Shown here piece after piece: positions 21,270 to 33,599 of a DNA stretch of 33,599 bases; the stretch's first letter is position 1, and each line of letters opens with the position of its first letter. Origin of the DNA: Acidimicrobiales bacterium (GTDB lineage Bacteria; Actinomycetota; Acidimicrobiia; Acidimicrobiales; SZUA-35); the NCBI GenBank assembly GCA_024638805.1, contig JAHEJO010000011.1, positions 1 to 33,599 on the forward strand. Direction: 5' to 3'. A program made the translations under genes and the position numbers. The notes below the pieces were generated by a model. It had not been told where the DNA came from and did not search any database. It saw only the letters and a list, made by a program, of their open reading frames with translations.

Positions 21270-24200
21270 GTGGCCTCAAACCAAGAACCGACCTCGCTTG
21301 GCCCCAACGCCTGGCTCGTCGAGGAACTCGCCCAGAACTACAAGGGCAATCCCAAGTCCGTGGACCAGGACTGGCGGGATCTCTTCGCCGGGGCGCAAGC
21401 CGAGTCGACCGCGACCCTCATCGAGACGGGCGCGCTCACGATCACCGAAGCGCCCACCGATGCGCCAGTGCGGACCGAACCGACGATCCCGGTTCCTCCG
21501 CCCGGGAACGGCACACAACCCGAGACCGAGAAGACCGGCGCAGCGGCGCCATCGAGCGCGAAACCCCAAACGACCGCACAACCCCAAACCAAGGCCCTCG
21601 ACCCCGAAGTCGCGTCAGCCGAACCGGGTGAACCGCTGCGAGGTGTTGCGGCGCGGATCGTGACCAACATGGAAGCCAGCCTCGGTGTTCCGACGGCCAC
21701 GAGTTTCCGCCAGGTTCCCGCCAAGCTCCTCGAGATCAACCGCAAGGTCCTCAACAACCATTTGCAGAGGATCCGGGGCGGCAAGGTCAGCTTCACCCAT
21801 CTGATCGGCTATGCGGTCGTGCTGGCGATCAAGGAACAGGTCCCCTCGATGGCGTACAGCTATCACCTCGGGGCAGATCGAACACCGCGGGTGATCAAGA
21901 ACGAGACCATCAACGTCGGCATCGCCGTCGACCAGACCAAGGCCGACGGTTCCCGTTCACTCATCGTCCCGGTGATCAAGGGTGCCGAGACCATGTCATT
22001 CCGGGAGTTCCTCGACGCCTACGAGGTGGCGATCGGCAAGGTGAGAAACAACAAGCTCACCATCGACGATCTGACCGGCGCCAACGTCACCATCACCAAC
22101 CCGGGCACCATCGGTACGGTGCAGAGCGTGCCTCGCCTCATGCCGGGCCAAGGCACGATCGTGGGACTAGGGGGAATTGGCTTCCCCACCGAGTATCAGG
22201 CTGCCGATCCGATCACCCTGGCCGATCTGGGCATCTCGAAGATCATGACCGTCTCGAGCACCTACGACCACCGGATCATCCAAGGCGCCGAATCGGGCGT
22301 GTTCCTCAAGCGGGTACACGAGCTCATGATGGGCGAGTACGGCTTCTACTCCGACATTTTCACCTGCATGCGGGTGCCGTACGAGGCCGTGCAGTGGCGA
22401 AAGGACAACGTCGCTGAATCCCAGGAGGCCGACCTGGCCCAGGAGAAGCAGCACGGCGTCAACACGCTCATCAATCAGTACCGGGTTCGCGGTCATCTGA
22501 TCGCCAACACGAATCCGCTCTCCGACGGTCCCAAACAGACCCATCCCGAACTCGACCCGGCGACGTACGGCCTGACGATCTGGGATCTCGATCGTCGGTT
22601 CCTGACCGGCAGCACCGAAGGCATCTACGCAGCCATCGACGGCGAAGCCAAGCAGATGAAGCTGGGCGACATCCTCGGGGTTCTCCGAGATGCGTATTGC
22701 CGCACGATCGGGATCGAATACATGCACATCGCCGACCCGGTCGAGAAGCGGTGGATCCAGGAGCAGGTCGAGACGCCGGCGGTCCGGTTCGATCGGGACA
22801 CCCTGCACCATGTGCTCGAACGGCTGAGCACTGCAGAGGCATTCGAGAAGTTCCTGGCCGCGCGTTATGTGGGGCAGAAACGTTTCGGACTCGAAGGCGC
22901 CGAGAGCGCCGTTCCCATCCTCGACGCGATCCTCAATGATGCCGCCGACGGTGGGGTGGAGCGATCGGTGATCGGTATGGCCCACCGCGGTCGTCTCAAC
23001 GTGCTCACCAACATCATGAAGAAGGAGCACCGCGAACTGTTCAAGGAGTTCGAAGGGGCGGTCGACGAGACGGCGATACAGGGCTCGGGTGACGTGAAGT
23101 ACCACCTCGGCTACACCGGGACGCACACCAGTCGAGTGGGCCACACCGTCGAGGTCGAATTGGCGGCCAATCCCTCGCATCTCGAGGCGGTGGGACCGGT
23201 CGTCGAGGGGATGTCCCGGGCGTACATGGACCAGAGCGAGGCGGGCAACTACCCGATTCTGCCGATCATGTTGCACGGCGACGCCGCATTCGCCGGACAG
23301 GGTGTCGTCGCCGAGACACTGAACCTCAGCCAGGTGAAGGGGTTCAAGGTCGGCGGCACGATCCACCTGATCATCAACAACCAGCTCGGCTACACGACCG
23401 CACCCCACCACAGTCGATCATCTGAATACTCCACCGATGTCGCCAAGATGGTCCAGGCGCCGATCATGCACGTCAACGCCGACGACCCCGAGGCCTGTGT
23501 CCGCGTAGGCCAACTCGCATTCGCCTATCGTCAGCGGTTCAACAAGGACGTCGTGATCGACATGATCGGCTATCGACGGCACGGTCACAACGAAGGCGAC
23601 GATCCCAGCTACACCCAGCCGGTGATGTATCGAAAGATCGCCGACCGACCCAGCGCCCGGTCGATCTTCACCCAGTCCCTTATCGACCGGGGCGAACTCA
23701 GTATCGAAGAGGCCGAGCAGGCGATCGAATACTTCCAACAGCTCCTGCAGATGGCGCTCGAGGACACCCGCGAGTCCGCGCCTCCGGAGGGGATCCGTGC
23801 CAAACCGTCACCGCCGGCGGTCGGGGTGCTGCCCCATGTGGACACGTCGGTGGATCGGGCCACGCTCGATGCGGTGTACGCCGCCCTTTCCTCGGTCCCC
23901 GACGGGTTCGAGGTCCATCCCAAGCTGGCCCGGCAGTTCGTCGCCCGGGACAAGATGTGGGCCTCGGGCCAGATCGACTGGGCCCTCGGCGAGGCCTTTG
24001 CGATGGGATCGCTCGTCGTCGAGGGAACCTCGGTGCGGCTGACCGGCCAGGACAGCCGGCGGGGAACGTTCGCCCATCGGCATGCGACCCTCAACCACTA
24101 CCAGACCGGTGATGAGCACACCCCGCTGGCCACTCTCGGCAAGGGGAAGACGAAGTTCTGGGTCTACGACTCGACCCTGTCGGAGTACGCCGGCCTCGGT

Positions 24201-25001
24201 TTCGAGTACGGCTACTCGCTCGCCAATCCCGAGGTTCTGACAATCTGGGAAGCCCAGTTCGGCGACTTCGTCAACGGCGCCCAGATCATCATCGATCAGT
24301 TCCTCGTCGCCGCCGAGGACAAGTGGAACGAGCACTCCCCGCTGGTGATGCTCCTCCCCCACGGCTTCGAGGGGCAAGGTCCCGAGCACTCCTCGGGCCG
24401 CCTCGAGCGTTTCCTCCTGCTGTGTGCGGAGGACAACATCCAGATCGCCAACGCCACCACGGCGGCTCAGTTGTTCCATCTCCTTCGCCGGCAGATCGTG
24501 CGGGAGGTCAACAAGCCGTTGGTCGTGTTCACTCCCAAGTCGGGCCTTCGCGCAAAATGGTCGCGCAGCCCGGTCGATCACATCACGTCGGGATCCTTCG
24601 AAGAGGTTCTCGAGGCGGTACCGGCAGCCGATCCGGCCGCGGTGAGCCGGGTCGTGTTCGCCTCCGGCAAGGTGGCGGCCGAAGCCGAGGAAGCGCGCGA
24701 CGGCATCGAGGCGCCGGCCGCCGTCATCCGGGTCGAGCAGCTCTACCCGTGGCCCTTCGCGGACGTTGCCGCAGCCCTAGCCCGGTATCCCAATGCCCAT
24801 GAGATCGTGTGGCTCCAGGAAGAGCCCGAGAACATGGGGGCCTGGAACTCGGTGAAAGGTCGTCTCTACGAAGCGCACGGAGAAACCCACACGATCCGTC
24901 GCGTCAGTCGAACCGAATCGGGCAGCCCCGCCACCGGCTCCCGGAACATCCACCTGCAGGAGCAGGAGTCGCTACTGGAGCGAGCATTCGGCGATCTGTG
25001 A
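21270..25001 (+). CDS. kgd: Multifunctional 2-oxoglutarate metabolism enzyme (Kgd; fused E2 catalytic domain and E1)
   Basis: GPNAWLVEELAQNYKGNPKSVDQDWRDLF; TSFRQVPAKLLEINRKVLNNHLQRIRGGKVSFTHLIGYAVV and TVSSTYDHRIIQGAESGVFL (E2); SVIGMAHRGRLNVLTNIMKKE, HVNADDPEACV, MIGYRRHGHNEGDDPSYTQP, QDSRRGTFAHRHA, LPHGFEGQGPEHSSGRLERFL (E1). 1243 aa. Confidence 0.96.
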   Translation: MASNQEPTSLGPNAWLVEELAQNYKGNPKSVDQDWRDLFAGAQAESTATLIETGALTITEAPTDAPVRTEPTIPVPPPGNGTQPETEKTGAAAPSSAKPQTTAQPQTKALDPEVASAEPGEPLRGVAARIVTNMEASLGVPTATSFRQVPAKLLEINRKVLNNHLQRIRGGKVSFTHLIGYAVVLAIKEQVPSMAYSYHLGADRTPRVIKNETINVGIAVDQTKADGSRSLIVPVIKGAETMSFREFLDAYEVAIGKVRNNKLTIDDLTGANVTITNPGTIGTVQSVPRLMPGQGTIVGLGGIGFPTEYQAADPITLADLGISKIMTVSSTYDHRIIQGAESGVFLKRVHELMMGEYGFYSDIFTCMRVPYEAVQWRKDNVAESQEADLAQEKQHGVNTLINQYRVRGHLIANTNPLSDGPKQTHPELDPATYGLTIWDLDRRFLTGSTEGIYAAIDGEAKQMKLGDILGVLRDAYCRTIGIEYMHIADPVEKRWIQEQVETPAVRFDRDTLHHVLERLSTAEAFEKFLAARYVGQKRFGLEGAESAVPILDAILNDAADGGVERSVIGMAHRGRLNVLTNIMKKEHRELFKEFEGAVDETAIQGSGDVKYHLGYTGTHTSRVGHTVEVELAANPSHLEAVGPVVEGMSRAYMDQSEAGNYPILPIMLHGDAAFAGQGVVAETLNLSQVKGFKVGGTIHLIINNQLGYTTAPHHSRSSEYSTDVAKMVQAPIMHVNADDPEACVRVGQLAFAYRQRFNKDVVIDMIGYRRHGHNEGDDPSYTQPVMYRKIADRPSARSIFTQSLIDRGELSIEEAEQAIEYFQQLLQMALEDTRESAPPEGIRAKPSPPAVGVLPHVDTSVDRATLDAVYAALSSVPDGFEVHPKLARQFVARDKMWASGQIDWALGEAFAMGSLVVEGTSVRLTGQDSRRGTFAHRHATLNHYQTGDEHTPLATLGKGKTKFWVYDSTLSEYAGLGFEYGYSLANPEVLTIWEAQFGDFVNGAQIIIDQFLVAAEDKWNEHSPLVMLLPHGFEGQGPEHSSGRLERFLLLCAEDNIQIANATTAAQLFHLLRRQIVREVNKPLVVFTPKSGLRAKWSRSPVDHITSGSFEEVLEAVPAADPAAVSRVVFASGKVAAEAEEARDGIEAPAAVIRVEQLYPWPFADVAAALARYPNAHEIVWLQEEPENMGAWNSVKGRLYEAHGETHTIRRVSRTESGSPATGSRNIHLQEQESLLERAFGDL

Positions 25002-25022
25002 CAGCGGCGGCTGCCGCCCACC

Positions 25023-26324
25023 TCAGGCCGGCGCCTCGCCCAACTCGAGGAGTCCGTACAGCTCGGCGAGGGCCGCATGCGACTCGAGCGCCAGCTGAGG
25101 ATCGGTGAGGTCCTCCAGGGTCAGCTCCGTCCGGTAGTGGCGCTGGACCCAACGTTCGAGTTCGTCGAACAGCGAGGAATCGAGCACCACCCGACCCCCG
25201 AGCGCTGCCATCTCGTCGTCGGTCATCGCAACCCGAAGCCGCAGACACGCCGGTCCGCCACCGTTGCTCATACTCTGACGAAGATCCACGAAGTGGACGG
25301 CGTCGATCGGATTGGAGCGGTCGGCGAGAATGCGGTCGACCTCGCGGCGCGTAGCGTCGTTCTCCCGCACCTCGACCGGGGCGATAATCGCCATCGAGCC
25401 CTCGGCGACGGTGACGAGCTGGGAATTGAACAGATAGCTCTGGACCGCATCCGCCAGCGAGACCCGGGCACCGTCGACGCCGATCGCAACGATGTCGTCG
25501 AGGGTGGCAAGGTCCGCGGTCGCAAACGCCTCGGCGTGATACAACAGCACGTTCTCGTTGGCGACGGCGACCACGTCGTTGTGGAAAGCGCCGGCATCGA
25601 CCGACGCCCCCTGCTGGTGCCAGAACCGGACCCGACCGGGTCGCAGCTGGTGTCGCCGGGCGACGGCCTGGCTGGCGAGAAGGGTTTGGCGTCGCGGGAA
25701 CCCCGCCGGTGCGACCGAACCGGCGGTCGAGCCGTAGACGAACACCTCGGTTCCCGGTTCGCCGTGGGCGGCGGTGAGCCGCATGTGGTTGGCAGCTCCC
25801 TCGTCACCGAAGGCTGGGGTTGCGGGCAGTGGATCGTGAACCGCGAAGTAGCGGCGGTCGGCGAAGACCGTGCGCAGGACCGCCGCCGTCCGAGAGGCCT
25901 CGATGGATCGGTGAGTGTTCGATACGAGGTTGGCGACCGAGAGATGGACCCGACCGTCGCCGGTGTCGGCCGACGGCGAAACCGTGGCTGCGTTGGCGGC
26001 CCACATCGCCGACGCCGAGTAAACCAGGGCCAGCAGCTCCGGAGCGTCGGCTGCCATGCGTTTGACCGCGTCGGGCAATGGCCCTTCGAAGCCGAGTGAC
26101 GCCAGCACCGGACCGTACGGGCGGGGCTGGGGCGGCAGCACGGCCTGTGGTATGTCGAGCGTGGAGAGGAGCCGCATCTTGGCGATGCCCTGCAGGGCCG
26201 CCGCTCGAGGGCTCGAAGGAAGTCCTCGATGTCGTCCCGATGCAAGATTCCCGAACGACAGTCCGGCGTAGTTGTGGGTCGGCCCGACCAGCCCGTCGAA
26301 GTTCGTTTCGCGTGCTCTAGTCAT
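25023..26324 (-). CDS. astB: N-succinylarginine dihydrolase
   Basis: MTRARETNFDGLVGPTHNYAGLSFGNLASGRHRGLPSSPRAAALQGIAKMR: AstB signature N-terminus; FHNDVVAVANENVLLYHAEAF; NGGGPACLRLRV. ATG at 26324 used instead of the ORF-track 26618. Confidence 0.95.
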   Translation of the reverse strand: MTRARETNFDGLVGPTHNYAGLSFGNLASGRHRGLPSSPRAAALQGIAKMRLLSTLDIPQAVLPPQPRPYGPVLASLGFEGPLPDAVKRMAADAPELLALVYSASAMWAANAATVSPSADTGDGRVHLSVANLVSNTHRSIEASRTAAVLRTVFADRRYFAVHDPLPATPAFGDEGAANHMRLTAAHGEPGTEVFVYGSTAGSVAPAGFPRRQTLLASQAVARRHQLRPGRVRFWHQQGASVDAGAFHNDVVAVANENVLLYHAEAFATADLATLDDIVAIGVDGARVSLADAVQSYLFNSQLVTVAEGSMAIIAPVEVRENDATRREVDRILADRSNPIDAVHFVDLRQSMSNGGGPACLRLRVAMTDDEMAALGGRVVLDSSLFDELERWVQRHYRTELTLEDLTDPQLALESHAALAELYGLLELGEAPA

Positions 26325-27759
26325 CCTCAGCACCGTCCACGCCGTGCAACTCGGCCACATCCTGCAGGCGATCAGCGACGAGGCTGGCGACGGGATCGGC
26401 ACAGTAGTCAGCGGCGGAGAAACCGGCCGGCCGGTGGTTGCCCGACCACCCGATCCCGCCGAAGGGTGCTGACCCGGATGCGCCGACCGTCGGCTGATTC
26501 CAATTGACGATCCCCGCCCGCAGCCGGTCCAGGGCCAGGTGCCCGGTCTGCTGGCGCGGCGAGAGAACAGCCGCTGCCAGGCCGAACCGGGTGGAGTTGG
26601 CGACCGAGATGGCCCCATCGAGGTCGGCGACCCGGTGGACTTGAAGCAGCGGGCCGAAGATCTCCTCGTCGGGAGGATCGGGGACGTCGGTGACGTCGAT
26701 CAGGCCCGGCTGCAGGAACGCCGGGCCGAGATCGGTCCGAGCGCGGGCAGCGAGGAGCGACACGGCGCCTCCGTCGACGAGCAGTGTCTGTTTGGACAGC
26801 ACCCCAGCTGCAGCGCCCGCCGAGATCAGTGGGCCGTGGAAGGGCTGGGGTTCGGCGAGTGGATCACCGATCCTTAGTCGCCCGGTCAGATCGATCACCT
26901 CATCGACCAGGGCCGCTCCCGACCGCGTTCGGGGCACGATCAGTCGACGGGCACACGTGCACCGCTGGCCAGCCGAGACGAACGCGGAGCGGACGATGAT
27001 CCTGGCCGCCACCGATCGATCCTCGTCGTCGTCGAGGTCCCACGCGATCATCGGGTTGTTACCGCCGAGCTCCAAGGCCAACAGCACCTCGGGACGGCCG
27101 GCCAGTGACCGGTGGATGGCCCGACCGGCTGCGACACCGCCAGTGAAGAGGACGCCGGCGACCCTCCGGTCGGCGATGACGTCCTGAGCGACGCCGGCCG
27201 CGCCCTGCAGAACCTGCACGACCCCCTCGGGGGCGCTCGCTTCGAGCCAGGCTCGCCCCATCCACTCGCCGACGGCGGCAGCGTGCTCACTCGGTTTGAA
27301 AACGACCGTGTTGCCGGCGAGCAGAGCCGGCATGATGTGCCCGTTGGGCAGGTGCCCGGGGAAGTTGAACGGCCCGAGAACCACCATGACCCCGAGAGGT
27401 CGATGGGAGACGGCCAGTGTTGTGCCGCCCAGCGGTGATGAGGAGGTCCCGGTGCGTTCATGGAATGCCCGGCCGGACAGCTTGGCCTTGCCGATCATGG
27501 CATCCACTTCCGACAGGGCGTCCCACCGCGCCTTTCCGACTTCGCCGGCGATCAGCTCGGCCAGTTCGGCCCTGCGGCCAGCGACGAGGGCGGCGAAGCG
27601 GTCGACCACCTCGATCCGTTCGTTCCGGGGTCGACCCGCCCATGCCTGAGCTGCGCCGGCTGCGAGCGCCATGGTTCGTTCGATGTCGGCGCCGGTGGCG
27701 ACAGGGCCCCGCCAGACGACCGACCCGTCCGTGGGTGAGCGTGACTCGAGGATTGTCAA
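26317..27759 (-). CDS. astD: N-succinylglutamate 5-semialdehyde dehydrogenase
   Basis: ALDH family: VMVVLGPFNFPGHLPNGHIMPALLAGNTVVFKPSE, LALELGGNNPMIAWD, SAGQRCTCARRLIVP, EIFGPLLQVHRV; AST context. Possible TTG start at 27759. Confidence 0.92.
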   Translation of the reverse strand: MTILESRSPTDGSVVWRGPVATGADIERTMALAAGAAQAWAGRPRNERIEVVDRFAALVAGRRAELAELIAGEVGKARWDALSEVDAMIGKAKLSGRAFHERTGTSSSPLGGTTLAVSHRPLGVMVVLGPFNFPGHLPNGHIMPALLAGNTVVFKPSEHAAAVGEWMGRAWLEASAPEGVVQVLQGAAGVAQDVIADRRVAGVLFTGGVAAGRAIHRSLAGRPEVLLALELGGNNPMIAWDLDDDEDRSVAARIIVRSAFVSAGQRCTCARRLIVPRTRSGAALVDEVIDLTGRLRIGDPLAEPQPFHGPLISAGAAAGVLSKQTLLVDGGAVSLLAARARTDLGPAFLQPGLIDVTDVPDPPDEEIFGPLLQVHRVADLDGAISVANSTRFGLAAAVLSPRQQTGHLALDRLRAGIVNWNQPTVGASGSAPFGGIGWSGNHRPAGFSAADYCADPVASLVADRLQDVAELHGVDGAEDD

Positions 27760-28802
27760 CGGATTGAGGCCGAGGTTGGTGGTGACGCCGACGGGGGTCC
27801 ATAGGCACTGACGAGCTCGCCTGTCGCCACGTCCAGGGCGGCGGCCGCCGCCTCGTCGACGACGATCCGGTCCTCGGAGATCAGGCCGCTCGAAGCGATC
27901 GTGCGGAACTCACCGAGGCGGCCGGCGCAGACCAGTATCGACCGCGCCCCCTCGGGGCTCATCGATCGTGTCTCGATCGGCGCGGTCACACCGTCGCGCA
28001 CGGCGAGCAGGTCGTCGATGTGAGCGTCCATGGTGGGACCTGCATCGAAGATGTCGACGTAGCCGTGGAACCGAAAACCTTCGCGTTTCAGCATCGCCAG
28101 GGCCGGCTCGGCACCCGGATGCGGCACCCCGATGACGTTCTGGGCCTCGGTCGGGAGGAGGTCGACGTAGAGCGGATAACGAGGGAGGAGATCGGCAATG
28201 AACCGGTACTCCTTTGCACTGCGCACATCGGCATCACTCAACTCGAGCTGGAAGAACTTTCGTCCCACCGCATCCCAGAACGGTGACCGGCCCTCGTCGT
28301 TGGTGAAACCACGCATCTCGGCCAGGACCTGCTCGGGGAACCGCTCACGGTGGGTTGCGAGGAAGAGGAACCTGCTCAACGAGATCAGCGAGCCTCGACC
28401 CCGACCGCGTCGATCCGGACGCACGTACAGACCACCGACCTCGGCGACCCCGGTGTAGTCGTTGACCGGACTGAGGATCTCGGTGTCCAGTCGCATCTCG
28501 AGTTCCGGCGACGATTTGGTGATCTTGGAGATCTTGTAGGAGTAGAAGGGCCGGTCGAGACCGACGTTGGAGTAGATGGCCGACGTACCGATGATCTCAC
28601 CGTCGTCGTCTTCGAGGACGAACAGGTACAGCTCGTCACCACGGAGTTCCCGATCGGGTTCGAAGCTGGTCAGGGCGCGCTGTAGCCGGGTGCTCATGCC
28701 CTCGCGGTCGCGGGGCATCGTGGTCATGTTTCCGTCGATCGATTCGGCCAGCTCGGCGAGAGCGTCGACGTCCTCTTCGGTCGCCGAGCGGACCCGCCGC
28801 AT
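27756..28802 (-). CDS. astA: Arginine N-succinyltransferase
   Basis: MRRVRSATEEDVDALAELAESIDGNMTTMPRDREGMSTRLQRALTSF... YTGVAEVGGLYVRPDRRGRGRGSLISLSRFLFLA...AEMRGFTNDEGRSPFWDAVGRKFF: AstA family. Start ATG 28802. Confidence 0.93.
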   Translation of the reverse strand: MRRVRSATEEDVDALAELAESIDGNMTTMPRDREGMSTRLQRALTSFEPDRELRGDELYLFVLEDDDGEIIGTSAIYSNVGLDRPFYSYKISKITKSSPELEMRLDTEILSPVNDYTGVAEVGGLYVRPDRRGRGRGSLISLSRFLFLATHRERFPEQVLAEMRGFTNDEGRSPFWDAVGRKFFQLELSDADVRSAKEYRFIADLLPRYPLYVDLLPTEAQNVIGVPHPGAEPALAMLKREGFRFHGYVDIFDAGPTMDAHIDDLLAVRDGVTAPIETRSMSPEGARSILVCAGRLGEFRTIASSGLISEDRIVVDEAAAAALDVATGELVSAYGPPSASPPTSASIR

Positions 28803-30034
28803 CAGCCGACCCCCGGTCGGATACCGGGCGAGGTTGCGACTCGATCGATGACGCCGACCAGCAACGCCACCGAGTCGGCGAATGTCGACACGTCCGTCGT
28901 TTCGGCGTCGGTGTGTATCCCCATCCCTTGAACCCCGAGGGTGTCGATCACACCCAAACCGAGTGCGGCCAGATTGTTCCCGTCGCACACCCCACCGGTG
29001 TCGATGAAGTCGAGCGGTTGACCCAGCTCGGTGCTGACCGACTCGACCAGGGAGGCGAGCCGCGACGTGACCTCGCTCCAGGGTTTGGCCGGTCGGTGGA
29101 TACCGCCGCGCACGTCGATGTGCACCTCGTGGTCCTGTGCGACTGAGTTCGCGTGCGATCGGGCCCCGTCGACGGCATCCTCGAGATCGCCGACCGAAGC
29201 GGAGCGGAGGTTCATCCGCACCGTCGCCCGGTCAGGCACGGCGTTGAAGGCATCCCCTCCGTGGAGGGAAGCGATGTTGACACCGACCGATCCTGGGGAA
29301 CAGCTGTTCACCCGGCCGACCAGATCGGCGGCGGCCCCCACAGCGTTGCGACCTTCTTGGAGCGCACGACCGGCATGGGCGGACCTACCGGTCACCATGA
29401 AGGTGAGATTGGCCGAGCCCGCTCGAGCGCGAGCAACACCGCCGCCGACCATACGAGGCTCGACGACCAGTGCCGCGCACGCCCGCCGGCCTACCGCGTT
29501 CAGCGTCGGGATGGAGCTGGGCGAACCGGTCTCCTCATCACCGCTGATCACGACTTCGATACCGAGGTCGGGGGCGAGGTCTCGTTCCAGGATCACCTCG
29601 AGTGCTGCCAGCAGAGCGACGAGGCCACCCTTCATGTCGGCGACACCGGGGCCGTGCAGCAGATCGCCGTCCCGTCGGACCTCCTGAAACCCGTGGTCCG
29701 GGCCGAAGACGGTGTCCGCGTGACCGGCAACCATCACTCGCCGGGGCTCGTCGGGACGAACGATCGCATGCAGGAGCGGCCCGATGCCCACCGCCCTCGA
29801 TGTCCCGTGATGGTCCACGGTGTCGATCGGGTCCGGGTACTCCAGCCTCATCACGGCGCCGAGCGTCCTCAACGCGTCGGCGAGTACGTTCTGAACCCGA
29901 CCGACCCCTTCCGGATGCACTGAACCACTGTTCAGCACGGCCAGGGATGTGATCAGACCGACGTGTCGATCCAGTTCGGAGGCGACCCGGTTGCGCACAT
30001 CGGTCAGGAGATCGGAGCCGGTCGGGTTCAGCAC
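28802..30034 (-). CDS. M20 family metallohydrolase (CPG2/ArgE/DapE-like), candidate succinylglutamate desuccinylase
   Basis: VMVAGHADTVF, HGPGVADMKGGLVALLAAL, VISGDEETGSPSS, VVEPR, GRSAHAG, GGDAFNAVPDRATVRMNLR, GMGIHTDAETTDVSTF: M20 ligand pattern intact. Overlaps astC by 7 nt and astA by 1 nt (TGATG). Confidence 0.9.
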   Translation of the reverse strand: MLNPTGSDLLTDVRNRVASELDRHVGLITSLAVLNSGSVHPEGVGRVQNVLADALRTLGAVMRLEYPDPIDTVDHHGTSRAVGIGPLLHAIVRPDEPRRVMVAGHADTVFGPDHGFQEVRRDGDLLHGPGVADMKGGLVALLAALEVILERDLAPDLGIEVVISGDEETGSPSSIPTLNAVGRRACAALVVEPRMVGGGVARARAGSANLTFMVTGRSAHAGRALQEGRNAVGAAADLVGRVNSCSPGSVGVNIASLHGGDAFNAVPDRATVRMNLRSASVGDLEDAVDGARSHANSVAQDHEVHIDVRGGIHRPAKPWSEVTSRLASLVESVSTELGQPLDFIDTGGVCDGNNLAALGLGVIDTLGVQGMGIHTDAETTDVSTFADSVALLVGVIDRVATSPGIRPGVG

Positions 30035-31260
30035 GGGTGACCCTCCCGGTCGACGACATCAGCACACACCCATGCCATTTTCGACAGCCCGGCATCAGCA
30101 TCGGCCGCCGAGAGGTTCAGCGGCGGCGCGATCCGTAGGACATCGGTGCCGGCGACGAGCACGATAAGCCCTTGGCCGAGTGCAGCGATTTGTAGCTCCT
30201 TTGCTCGACCGGCGAACGCGCCGGACAGCTCCAGCCCGATGAGCAGCCCCAGTCCGCGTACATCGGCGAACATGCCGGGCGGAGCGATCTCGTGCAGCCC
30301 GGCGAACAACTGCTCGCTTCTCGCCCGAACGTTGGCCAGAAGTTGCGGACGGCTCACCTCGTCGAGCACCGCTCCCGCCACCGCGCAGGCCAGAGGGTTG
30401 CCGCCGTAGGTCGTACCGTGGGTTCCGAGGGCCAGGCTCCTGGCGACCTCCTCGGTCGCCAGCATGGCCCCGATCGGAAAGCCGCCTCCCAAGCCCTTGG
30501 CCGAGGTGAGAATGTCGGGTACGACCTCGTATTGCTCGTAGGCGAACAGTGTTCCCGATCGCCCGACCCCGATCTGCACTTCGTCGAAGATCAACAGCGC
30601 ATCGGCCTCGTCGCACAGATCGCGGGCGGCCTGCAGATACTCCCGGGACAGCGCGCGCACACCGCCTTCTCCCATTACCGGCTCGAGGATCACCGCGCAG
30701 ACCGACGCGTCCATTTCGCTCCGTAGCTCCTCGATGTCCTCGCGTTCCACGTGGGTGATGCCCTCGATCGCAGGACCGAATCCCGCCGAGTAAGACGGCT
30801 TGCCGCCGACCGACACGGTGAACAACGTGCGCCCGTGAAACGCCTCGTTGAGCGCCACGATCTTGTGTTTGTCCGGTCCGTGGCGATCGTGGGCATGTCG
30901 ACGGGCGAGCTTGAGCGCCGCCTCGTTCGCTTCGGCACCGGAGTTGGCGAAGAAGACTCGATCGGCGAAGGTCAGTTCTGTCAACCGTCGGGCCAGTGAC
31001 AACGCCGGCTCGTTGGTGAACACGTTGGACAGGTGCCAGATCAGTTCGGACTGCCGACGAAGTGCGTCGAGCACCGCCGGATGCCCGTGGCCGAGAGCGC
31101 TCACCGCAATCCCGCTGCCGAAATCGAGATAGCGCCGTCCTGCGTCGTCGGTGATCCACGACCCCTCCGCCTTCACCGGCAGGATGTCGAGCGGGGCGTA
31201 GGTCGGCATCATCACCGCCTCGGCCCGCTCGATCACCGTCTCTCGTCGGTCATCTGCCAT
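30028..31260 (-). CDS. astC: Succinylornithine/acetylornithine aminotransferase (class III PLP)
   Basis: SNVFTNEPALSLARRLTELTFADRVFFANSGAEANEAALKLARRH, ALNEAFHGRTLFTVSVGGKPSY, LLIFDEVQIGVGRSGTLFAYE, ILTSAKGLGGGFPIGAML, GTHGTTYGGNPLACAVA; first gene of the AST operon. Confidence 0.92.
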   Translation of the reverse strand: MADDRRETVIERAEAVMMPTYAPLDILPVKAEGSWITDDAGRRYLDFGSGIAVSALGHGHPAVLDALRRQSELIWHLSNVFTNEPALSLARRLTELTFADRVFFANSGAEANEAALKLARRHAHDRHGPDKHKIVALNEAFHGRTLFTVSVGGKPSYSAGFGPAIEGITHVEREDIEELRSEMDASVCAVILEPVMGEGGVRALSREYLQAARDLCDEADALLIFDEVQIGVGRSGTLFAYEQYEVVPDILTSAKGLGGGFPIGAMLATEEVARSLALGTHGTTYGGNPLACAVAGAVLDEVSRPQLLANVRARSEQLFAGLHEIAPPGMFADVRGLGLLIGLELSGAFAGRAKELQIAALGQGLIVLVAGTDVLRIAPPLNLSAADADAGLSKMAWVCADVVDREGHPC

Positions 31261-31344
31261 CGTTCACACCCTCGTCGTTGCTCACACCGGTTCCACTCGT
31301 TCTCCAGCATCGCCTGAGAACGGGCCCTTGGGAAGTGACCCGCA

Positions 31345-31375
31345 TGCAATATTGCTTCCGCTGGGGAATACTGCA
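31345..31375. promoter_or_regulatory. Inverted repeat TGCAATATTGC-N9-GGAATACTGCA in astC/GT-B intergenic region
   Basis: Arms 9/11 complementary, arm centres about 20 bp apart; left arm also contains the perfect palindrome GCAATATTGC (31346-31355). Confidence 0.4.
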
Positions 31376-31443
31376 CTCAGGTCATCCCTGGCGGCGTCGC
31401 TACTCGGTCCCGTCAACGCGGCTGACCCCCACAAGGAGACCTC

Positions 31444-32991
31444 ATGGACACCCAACGCTTCTCCCTCTACGGGAACACGATCACCGCGGCACAGGATCGC
31501 AAGGCGCTCGAGTGGCAGGAGATGTTCCGCAAGCAGTTCGACTACGACCCGAACGAGCGTTACGAGCTGAGCGTCCACGACAACGCTCAGCTCGGCGACG
31601 TGCTCGGAATTCGGGATATTCGGCGTGACTCCGAAGGGGATCCGATCGATCGCGACGCCGGCGTCGTGATCTCGACGATCCGCATGGGGTACGGCCACTA
31701 CCGAATCGCCATGGCCGGAGCCTCTGCGGCGCGAGCGATGGGACGCACGCCCTACTGGCTCGATCTGCTCGCGATCCCTGGCATCACCCAGGATGCGATC
31801 AACTGGTGGAACACCAATTACAGCAAGTATTCCCGGGTGTCACAGCGCAGCGCTCTGTTCGACAAGTACGTCTGGGAATCGGTGACGTCGGGTGACAAGA
31901 CACTCCCGGGCTTGAACTGGCTGCTGAACAATCAGGCGATGGGCTGGCCGTGGCGGTTCCTCAAAGCCAACGCGCGCGACTACCGCAAGAGCGAATTGTT
32001 TGCCAATCTGCACCGCGCCATGCCCTCCGACATGCCGATCCTCACCGCCCACATGTGGAACTGCATGGGGGCCGTCGCCGGGGGAATGACGAACGTCGTC
32101 GACATGATGTTCGACAACTGGCCGATGGCGTTCCAGCTGACCGAGGGCGCAACCCACGCCGTCCAGTCGCCGTCGGGTTACTACGGATTCCGGATCATGA
32201 ATCAGTTCGACGAGGACGACAAGATCCTGAATCCGACACCGGCAGACGCGATCGAGTACGTCGGCCATCACGTCGACCATGAGTTGGTGGAGAACATCGA
32301 GGTCGATTGTGCGGCTCGAATGGACCGTATGCGAAAGGGCGAGCCGCGTCGCTTCGTGCTGACGATGGGCGGCGCTGGAGCCCAACGCGAACTCTTCAAG
32401 GCGATCATCGACCATTGCCAGCCGATGATCGAGCGCGACGAGCTCACGTTGTTCGTCAACCTCGGCGATCACGCTGACAACTGGGACTGGCTACGAGCCG
32501 AGCTCGGATCGGCAGCGTCATCGGTGCACACCCATCTCACGTGGGACGACGCTCGTGGGTTTGCTGACGACATCCGGGATGGGGAGACACGGGGGCTGCA
32601 CGTCTTCTTGTTCGACAACACCTTCCATGGCGTCTACACCACGAACTACCTGATGCGAGTCAGCGACGTGTTGATCACCAAGCCGTCCGAGTTGGCGTTC
32701 TACCCGATCCCGAAGATCTTCAATGCTCGGGTGGGCGCACACGAGGCGTGGGGTGCGATTCGCAGCGCCGAGCTCGGAGACGGGACGATCGAGACGCGGA
32801 CGATTCCACGCACGTTGCAGGCGATCGACTTGATCACCTGTGAGACGGATCTTCTGGAGCTGTTCTGTGATTCGATCGTGAAGAACAAGCAGATCGGAAT
32901 CTACGACGGCGCCTACAAGTGCGTCGCCCTCGCAACCGGCTCGACATGGGAACGCTCGCCCAACGGAAACACGGTCGACCGCGGAGCCTGA
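31444..32991 (+). CDS. Uncharacterised GT-B-like (MurG/MGDG-synthase-like) protein
   Basis: GVVISTIRMGYGHYRIAMAGASAARAMGRTPYWLDLL, RRFVLTMGGAGAQRELFKAII, RVSDVLITKPSELAFYPIPKIFNARVGAHEAWGAIRSAELGDGT; SD AAGGAG 5 nt before ATG 31444. Confidence 0.55.
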   Translation: MDTQRFSLYGNTITAAQDRKALEWQEMFRKQFDYDPNERYELSVHDNAQLGDVLGIRDIRRDSEGDPIDRDAGVVISTIRMGYGHYRIAMAGASAARAMGRTPYWLDLLAIPGITQDAINWWNTNYSKYSRVSQRSALFDKYVWESVTSGDKTLPGLNWLLNNQAMGWPWRFLKANARDYRKSELFANLHRAMPSDMPILTAHMWNCMGAVAGGMTNVVDMMFDNWPMAFQLTEGATHAVQSPSGYYGFRIMNQFDEDDKILNPTPADAIEYVGHHVDHELVENIEVDCAARMDRMRKGEPRRFVLTMGGAGAQRELFKAIIDHCQPMIERDELTLFVNLGDHADNWDWLRAELGSAASSVHTHLTWDDARGFADDIRDGETRGLHVFLFDNTFHGVYTTNYLMRVSDVLITKPSELAFYPIPKIFNARVGAHEAWGAIRSAELGDGTIETRTIPRTLQAIDLITCETDLLELFCDSIVKNKQIGIYDGAYKCVALATGSTWERSPNGNTVDRGA

Positions 32992-33006
32992 GGGCGTGGG
33001 GGCACG

Positions 33007-33119
33007 GCGATCACCATCGACGACATGGGGGCGGACCTGCAGGTGACGTGTGCCCACAACATCACGTCCATCCGCTCGTCGCACTACCCGAACGACCCGC
33101 TTTCTACGACCTGACAGAT
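33007..33119 (+). pseudogene. Remnant of GH2 beta-galactosidase (LacZ-like), frameshifted
   Basis: Frame 1 (from 33007): [31 protein letters not shown]; frame switch at about 33097-33099, then AFYDLTD. Together resembles the conserved LacZ segment T..DM..D...M...N.NAVR.SHYPNDP.FYDLCD. Confidence 0.7.
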
Positions 33120-33207
33120 GGTCGTGTCGGCGGATTCAGGGACATCCGTCGAGTGTCGTATCGCCGAACGATCCCAGCGTGGCGGTATAGGCCTGCGCCG
33201 ATCGCCG

Positions 33208-33599
33208 CTAGCACTCCGTTGCGTCGTCGAGGAGCGACTCGGCGGTGATCGATGGTTCACCCAGGACGGCGGCCAGGTCACACAGGGCCTGGCGCTCGGA
33301 GCTGACCTTGATCGTCGTCATTCCCATCTGCCTTGCCGGCTTGAGATTCACGCCGAGGTCGTCCAGAAAGACCGCCTCGTTCGGTTCGATCCCCAGATCG
33401 GCTAGTACGGCATCGTAATAGGCGACTTCGGGTTTGCGAAAGCCGATCTTCGAGGACTCGTAGATCCTCTCGAACAACGACATCGCAGATGCGATGTCAG
33501 CGCGCCGGGACTCCAAACCCGCCACGTTGTTGGTCAGGCAGGCGATATGGAAACCAAGCCGCGGCAGCAGCTCGAGAGCGGTTCTCATCGACGGACGAA
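33208..33599 (-). CDS. HAD-superfamily hydrolase, N-terminus truncated by window edge
   Basis: RTALELLPRLGFHIACLTNNVAGLESRRAD...YESSKIGFRKPEVAYYDAVLADLGIEPNEAVFLDDLGVNLKPARQMGMTTIKV: HAD motifs II-IV (LTNN, GFRKPE, FLDDLGVN). Confidence 0.9.
   Translation of the reverse strand, partial: RPSMRTALELLPRLGFHIACLTNNVAGLESRRADIASAMSLFERIYESSKIGFRKPEVAYYDAVLADLGIEPNEAVFLDDLGVNLKPARQMGMTTIKVSSERQALCDLAAVLGEPSITAESLLDDATEC

Follow-up and report, generated by a model that had tools for sequence, protein, structure and literature searches.

A truncated and frameshifted LacZ-type GH2 relic at the probable edge of DNA inserted between kgd and HAD genes in an Acidimicrobiales genome

The window analysed here, the whole 33,599-nucleotide stretch of DNA, contains a short relic of a GH2 (beta-galactosidase, LacZ-type) gene close to its right end. 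The relic is best read as a truncated LacZ/EbgA-type GH2 piece lying at the right edge of DNA inserted between the convergent kgd and HAD genes, and as a non-functional pseudogene; we give this reading a probability of about 0.8. Directly observed are the GH2 homology, the frameshift, the sharp ends and the 8.2 kb that four relatives lack at this site. The features concerned are as follows.

21270–25001, plus strand: kgd-type 2-oxoglutarate dehydrogenase/decarboxylase, left flank.
25002–33207, no strand: extra interval of 8.2 kb, absent between kgd and HAD in the relatives G001, G002, G004 and G011.
25023–31260, minus strand: arginine succinyltransferase catabolic operon (astC-like, M20 hydrolase, astA, astD, astB).
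31444–32991, plus strand: DUF6937 + DUF6938 gene (GT-B-like), from domain search, relatives and predicted fold.
33001–33119, plus strand: GH2 TIM-barrel relic, from PF02836, frameshift-aware alignment, DNA identity and NCBIfam LacZ models.
33120–33207, no strand: spacer from the relic to the HAD stop, in which no GH2, RNA-family or relative-spacer similarity was found.
33208–33597, minus strand: HAD-IA hydrolase, right flank, cut by the contig end.

Translation of the three forward frames of 32900–33260 bore out the reading frames given in the original prediction. The GT-B-like gene ends with a TGA stop at 32989–32991, and the same frame then continues as [40 protein letters not shown]-stop. 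The peptide AFYDLTD is read in another frame than the preceding relic codons. The relic spans 119 bases, or about 40 codons; it lacks a start codon and its frame shifts once, near 33097. Homology can be followed from about 33001 (GTAIT, corresponding to GKAVT), six bases upstream of the position 33007 first proposed, and ends at 33112–33113 at the DNA level and at 33119 at the protein level. The relic codes for part of the conserved GH2 TIM-barrel segment and ends in [16 protein letters not shown].

The assignment of this segment to LacZ/GH2, also part of the original prediction, was confirmed by profile searches. When the two frames were joined, 37 residues matched positions 33–69 of 302 of PF02836 (E = 2.1e-8, 34 bits, for a Pfam cut-off of 21 bits), and the unjoined frame alone also scored above this cut-off (E = 6e-7). 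When the whole genome was searched with PF02836, the relic was recovered unprompted at C95:32995–33099, again above the family cut-off. The NCBIfam LacZ, EbgA-like (PRK10340) and Bga2A models matched the same internal segment with E-values down to 1.6e-10, and the relic corresponds to about positions 365–404 of PRK09525, the E. coli LacZ-type model. Frameshift-aware protein-to-DNA alignment, a check that had been proposed together with the prediction, gave scores of 97, 111 and 121 with GKAVT-type GH2 proteins from three genomes and of 76 with the GH2 of the genome itself, compared with 30–44 for 15 random stretches of the window. Judged by these sequence comparisons, the GH2 match is not due to chance. 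The expectation that ORF-based annotation would miss this relic, placed between the GT-B-like and HAD genes, is supported as well.

The relic represents about 4% of the protein and at least 95% of the GH2 gene is missing. Intact GH2 genes continue with the residues DELGxYVxDEANxESH, which are conserved as strongly as the relic segment, and no counterpart of these was found downstream of the relic in the window. Since these conserved residues are missing, the ends of the relic are cuts rather than the result of gradual decay. Frameshift-aware alignment detected no GH2 trace in 33114–33260 and nothing above background in the gap upstream of the DUF6937/DUF6938 gene (31250–31450). Hence, the sequence following the relic, first described as degraded, is better described as a point where homology simply stops, 33120–33207 holding no recognisable GH2 sequence. 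Likewise, the proposed single missing nucleotide agrees with the one frameshift observed but is not what destroyed the gene.

In this state the relic cannot be an enzyme. An intact open frame with catalytic glutamates is replaced by 40 frameshifted codons without a start, and the sequence stops before the acid/base and nucleophile glutamates of LacZ, so that neither is present. Where the N-terminal sugar-binding (jelly-roll) and immunoglobulin-like domains would lie, the intact DUF6937/DUF6938 gene is found directly upstream. Significant homology is thus combined with disabling changes, namely a frameshift and truncation on both sides, and the relic is not conserved as such in the kgd–HAD gap of G001, G002, G004 and G011. 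Residue conservation was judged against 48 distinct GH2 relatives. The relic still carries the invariant residues of the segment (G, R, H, Y, P and the final D) and departs from the relatives at four positions with at least 85% conservation; two of these changes, T to S in column 28 and C to T in column 41, introduce residues seen in no relative. In addition, it reads VTC where the relatives mostly read VMK, LMK or AMR. Since R, H, Y, P and D, all invariant, persist, decay is modest, a point that weighs against the preferred reading.

Because the motif residues R, H, Y, P and N are still readable, we considered whether the relic has been retained to serve in another way, be it as a short peptide, as a regulatory RNA or as a recombination target. 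This seems extremely improbable: no isolated relic-like fragment was found elsewhere in 397 genomes of the order, where every other match belongs to an open frame of 475 codons or more, no Rfam family matched the relic region, and the sequence is frameshifted and lacks a start. We infer that the relic is a non-functional pseudogene fragment with no present function.

The relic aligns with LacZ/EbgA/Bga2A-type beta-galactosidases (PF02836) over 40 residues without gaps after frame joining, in the region of the RxSHYPN motif, and differs from them in its frameshift and in having lost the sugar-binding domain, both glutamates and all else. Its best relatives are intact GH2 genes of 900–1100 codons from the same order. 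The closest belong to another family of that order (f7) and reach 65% protein identity. The GH2 genes of G261, G136 and G049 are 57–65% identical to it at the protein level (57% for G049), and that of G261 is 78% identical at the DNA level over 114 bp. They share the GKAVT-type motif with the relic and, in contrast to it, are complete open frames of 966–1097 codons at other loci. The whole-genome PF02836 search found a single intact GH2 gene of 1004 codons in the genome itself (at C171) and no further GH2 TIM-barrel pieces. This gene and the GH2s of the genus carry the GRHQS-type motif, and their identity to the relic over the matched stretch is only 45–50%. As the subtypes differ and identity is this low, the relic did not arise by breakage of a copy of the resident GH2; the subtype call rests on the motif and on identities, 40 residues giving a tree little weight. 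A 26-bp match at C157 of the same genome was rejected as a chance match inside an unrelated coding sequence (IIDDIGADL).

In three genomes of the same genus (G001, G002 and G004) and one of the same family (G011), kgd and HAD are convergent with adjoining ends, separated by short spacers without GH2. In the window, the same two genes are separated by the ast operon, the DUF6937/DUF6938 gene and then the relic, that is, by 8.2 kb of extra DNA between genes that are adjacent in the relatives. This arrangement bears on whether the HAD gene of this lineage once had a full-length GH2 neighbour that was deleted in place down to 40 codons. The relic does lie in an intergenic gap with room for a gene; however, none of these four relatives has a GH2 between kgd and HAD, and the GH2 genes that they do have are located at other sites and belong to the other subtype, so that decay in place seems unlikely. 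The GH2 relic of the original prediction is real, but the loss of a resident gene beside the GT-B-like gene, which it was taken to indicate, is not supported as stated: an intact GH2 beside that gene, for which a synteny check had been proposed, was not found in the flanking sequence fetched for 80 related loci (up to 6 kb), no GH2 lies between kgd and HAD in the four relatives, and the genome keeps an intact GH2 of another subtype.

The flanks also bear on an assembly artefact, in which a false join would have placed the GH2 fragment or a base-calling error would have created the frameshift. The genome is a draft of 213 contigs that is 84.6% complete, the relic lies about 480 bases from the contig end, and the loss of one base may stem from a sequencing error. 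On the other hand, a chimeric contig is unlikely because kgd and HAD, on its two outer sides, are the neighbours to be expected from relatives, and the truncation is independent of the frameshift. We consider an artefact of either kind very unlikely.

The DUF6937/DUF6938 gene was not found in 60 near relatives or in the 396 other genomes of the order that were searched. Homologues 64–89% identical occur in scattered genomes, mostly MAGs (80 relatives fetched), with up to 87–89% identity in records labelled Demequina and Nanopelagicales and others in Acidimicrobiia, Chloroflexi and Spirochaetes. This patchy distribution of highly similar genes points to horizontal transfer, and the gene was very likely acquired. 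The sequence following its stop codon was different in every related locus inspected. Despite its patchy occurrence, the gene is strongly conserved (mean column identity of 77% in 23 sequences). No PDB sequence match was found for the protein. Its predicted model, of moderate confidence (mean pLDDT 69.6, mostly 75–95 in the C-terminal half), resembles GT-B glycosyltransferases such as CalG3, MGD1 and MurG with modest scores; the GT-B-like label is thus plausible, with weak support from this comparison.

Under the preferred reading, DNA would have been inserted, in a single step or in several, at the point where kgd and HAD converge with their 3' ends; the 8.2 kb may reflect several insertion events. 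The GH2 piece would have come in together with the DUF6937/DUF6938 gene or in the course of that gene's insertion, either through ordinary illegitimate recombination or through transfer from a genome with a GKAVT-type GH2. The annotated genes include no integrase, the edges of the interval show no convincing direct repeats (only short, chance-like ones), and no composition step marks the insertion, codon use and GC matching those of the neighbours. As no donor locus carrying both the DUF gene and a GH2 was found, and no integrase, repeat or composition step, the joint arrival of gene and relic is what we infer. It is conceivable, though doubtful, that the kgd–HAD gap is a recurrent insertion site in this family of bacteria and that the GH2 scrap is the cut end of DNA from another family of the order that arrived with the DUF6937/DUF6938 gene.

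Failed horizontal transfer is a well-documented source of bacterial pseudogenes (Liu et al. 2004, PMC522871). Like these, the relic is a disabled intergenic homology detected by translated search, beside a gene of foreign distribution; it differs in being very short and in that its own transfer is deduced. Such pseudogenes are common, and the relic is an ordinary molecular fossil of an already known kind. It illustrates that as few as 40 codons of an intergenic protein relic suffice for its recognition and for its placement by synteny, and it would mark where an insertion ends. For the organism's biology it changes nothing, a different GH2 being intact.

Further observations concern the interval and its site. 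The spacer that follows the relic shares no sequence with the kgd–HAD gaps of the relatives. In G002 (C15) that gap contains a directly repeated sequence of about 100 bases, and shorter repeats occur in those of G001 and G011; the kgd–HAD spacer is possibly a repeat-rich insertion site. Homologous ast-type operons are present at other sites in G001 and G002. In the operon of the window, an M20-family hydrolase (28802–30034) occupies the place where the succinylglutamate desuccinylase AstE would be expected, and it may replace AstE.
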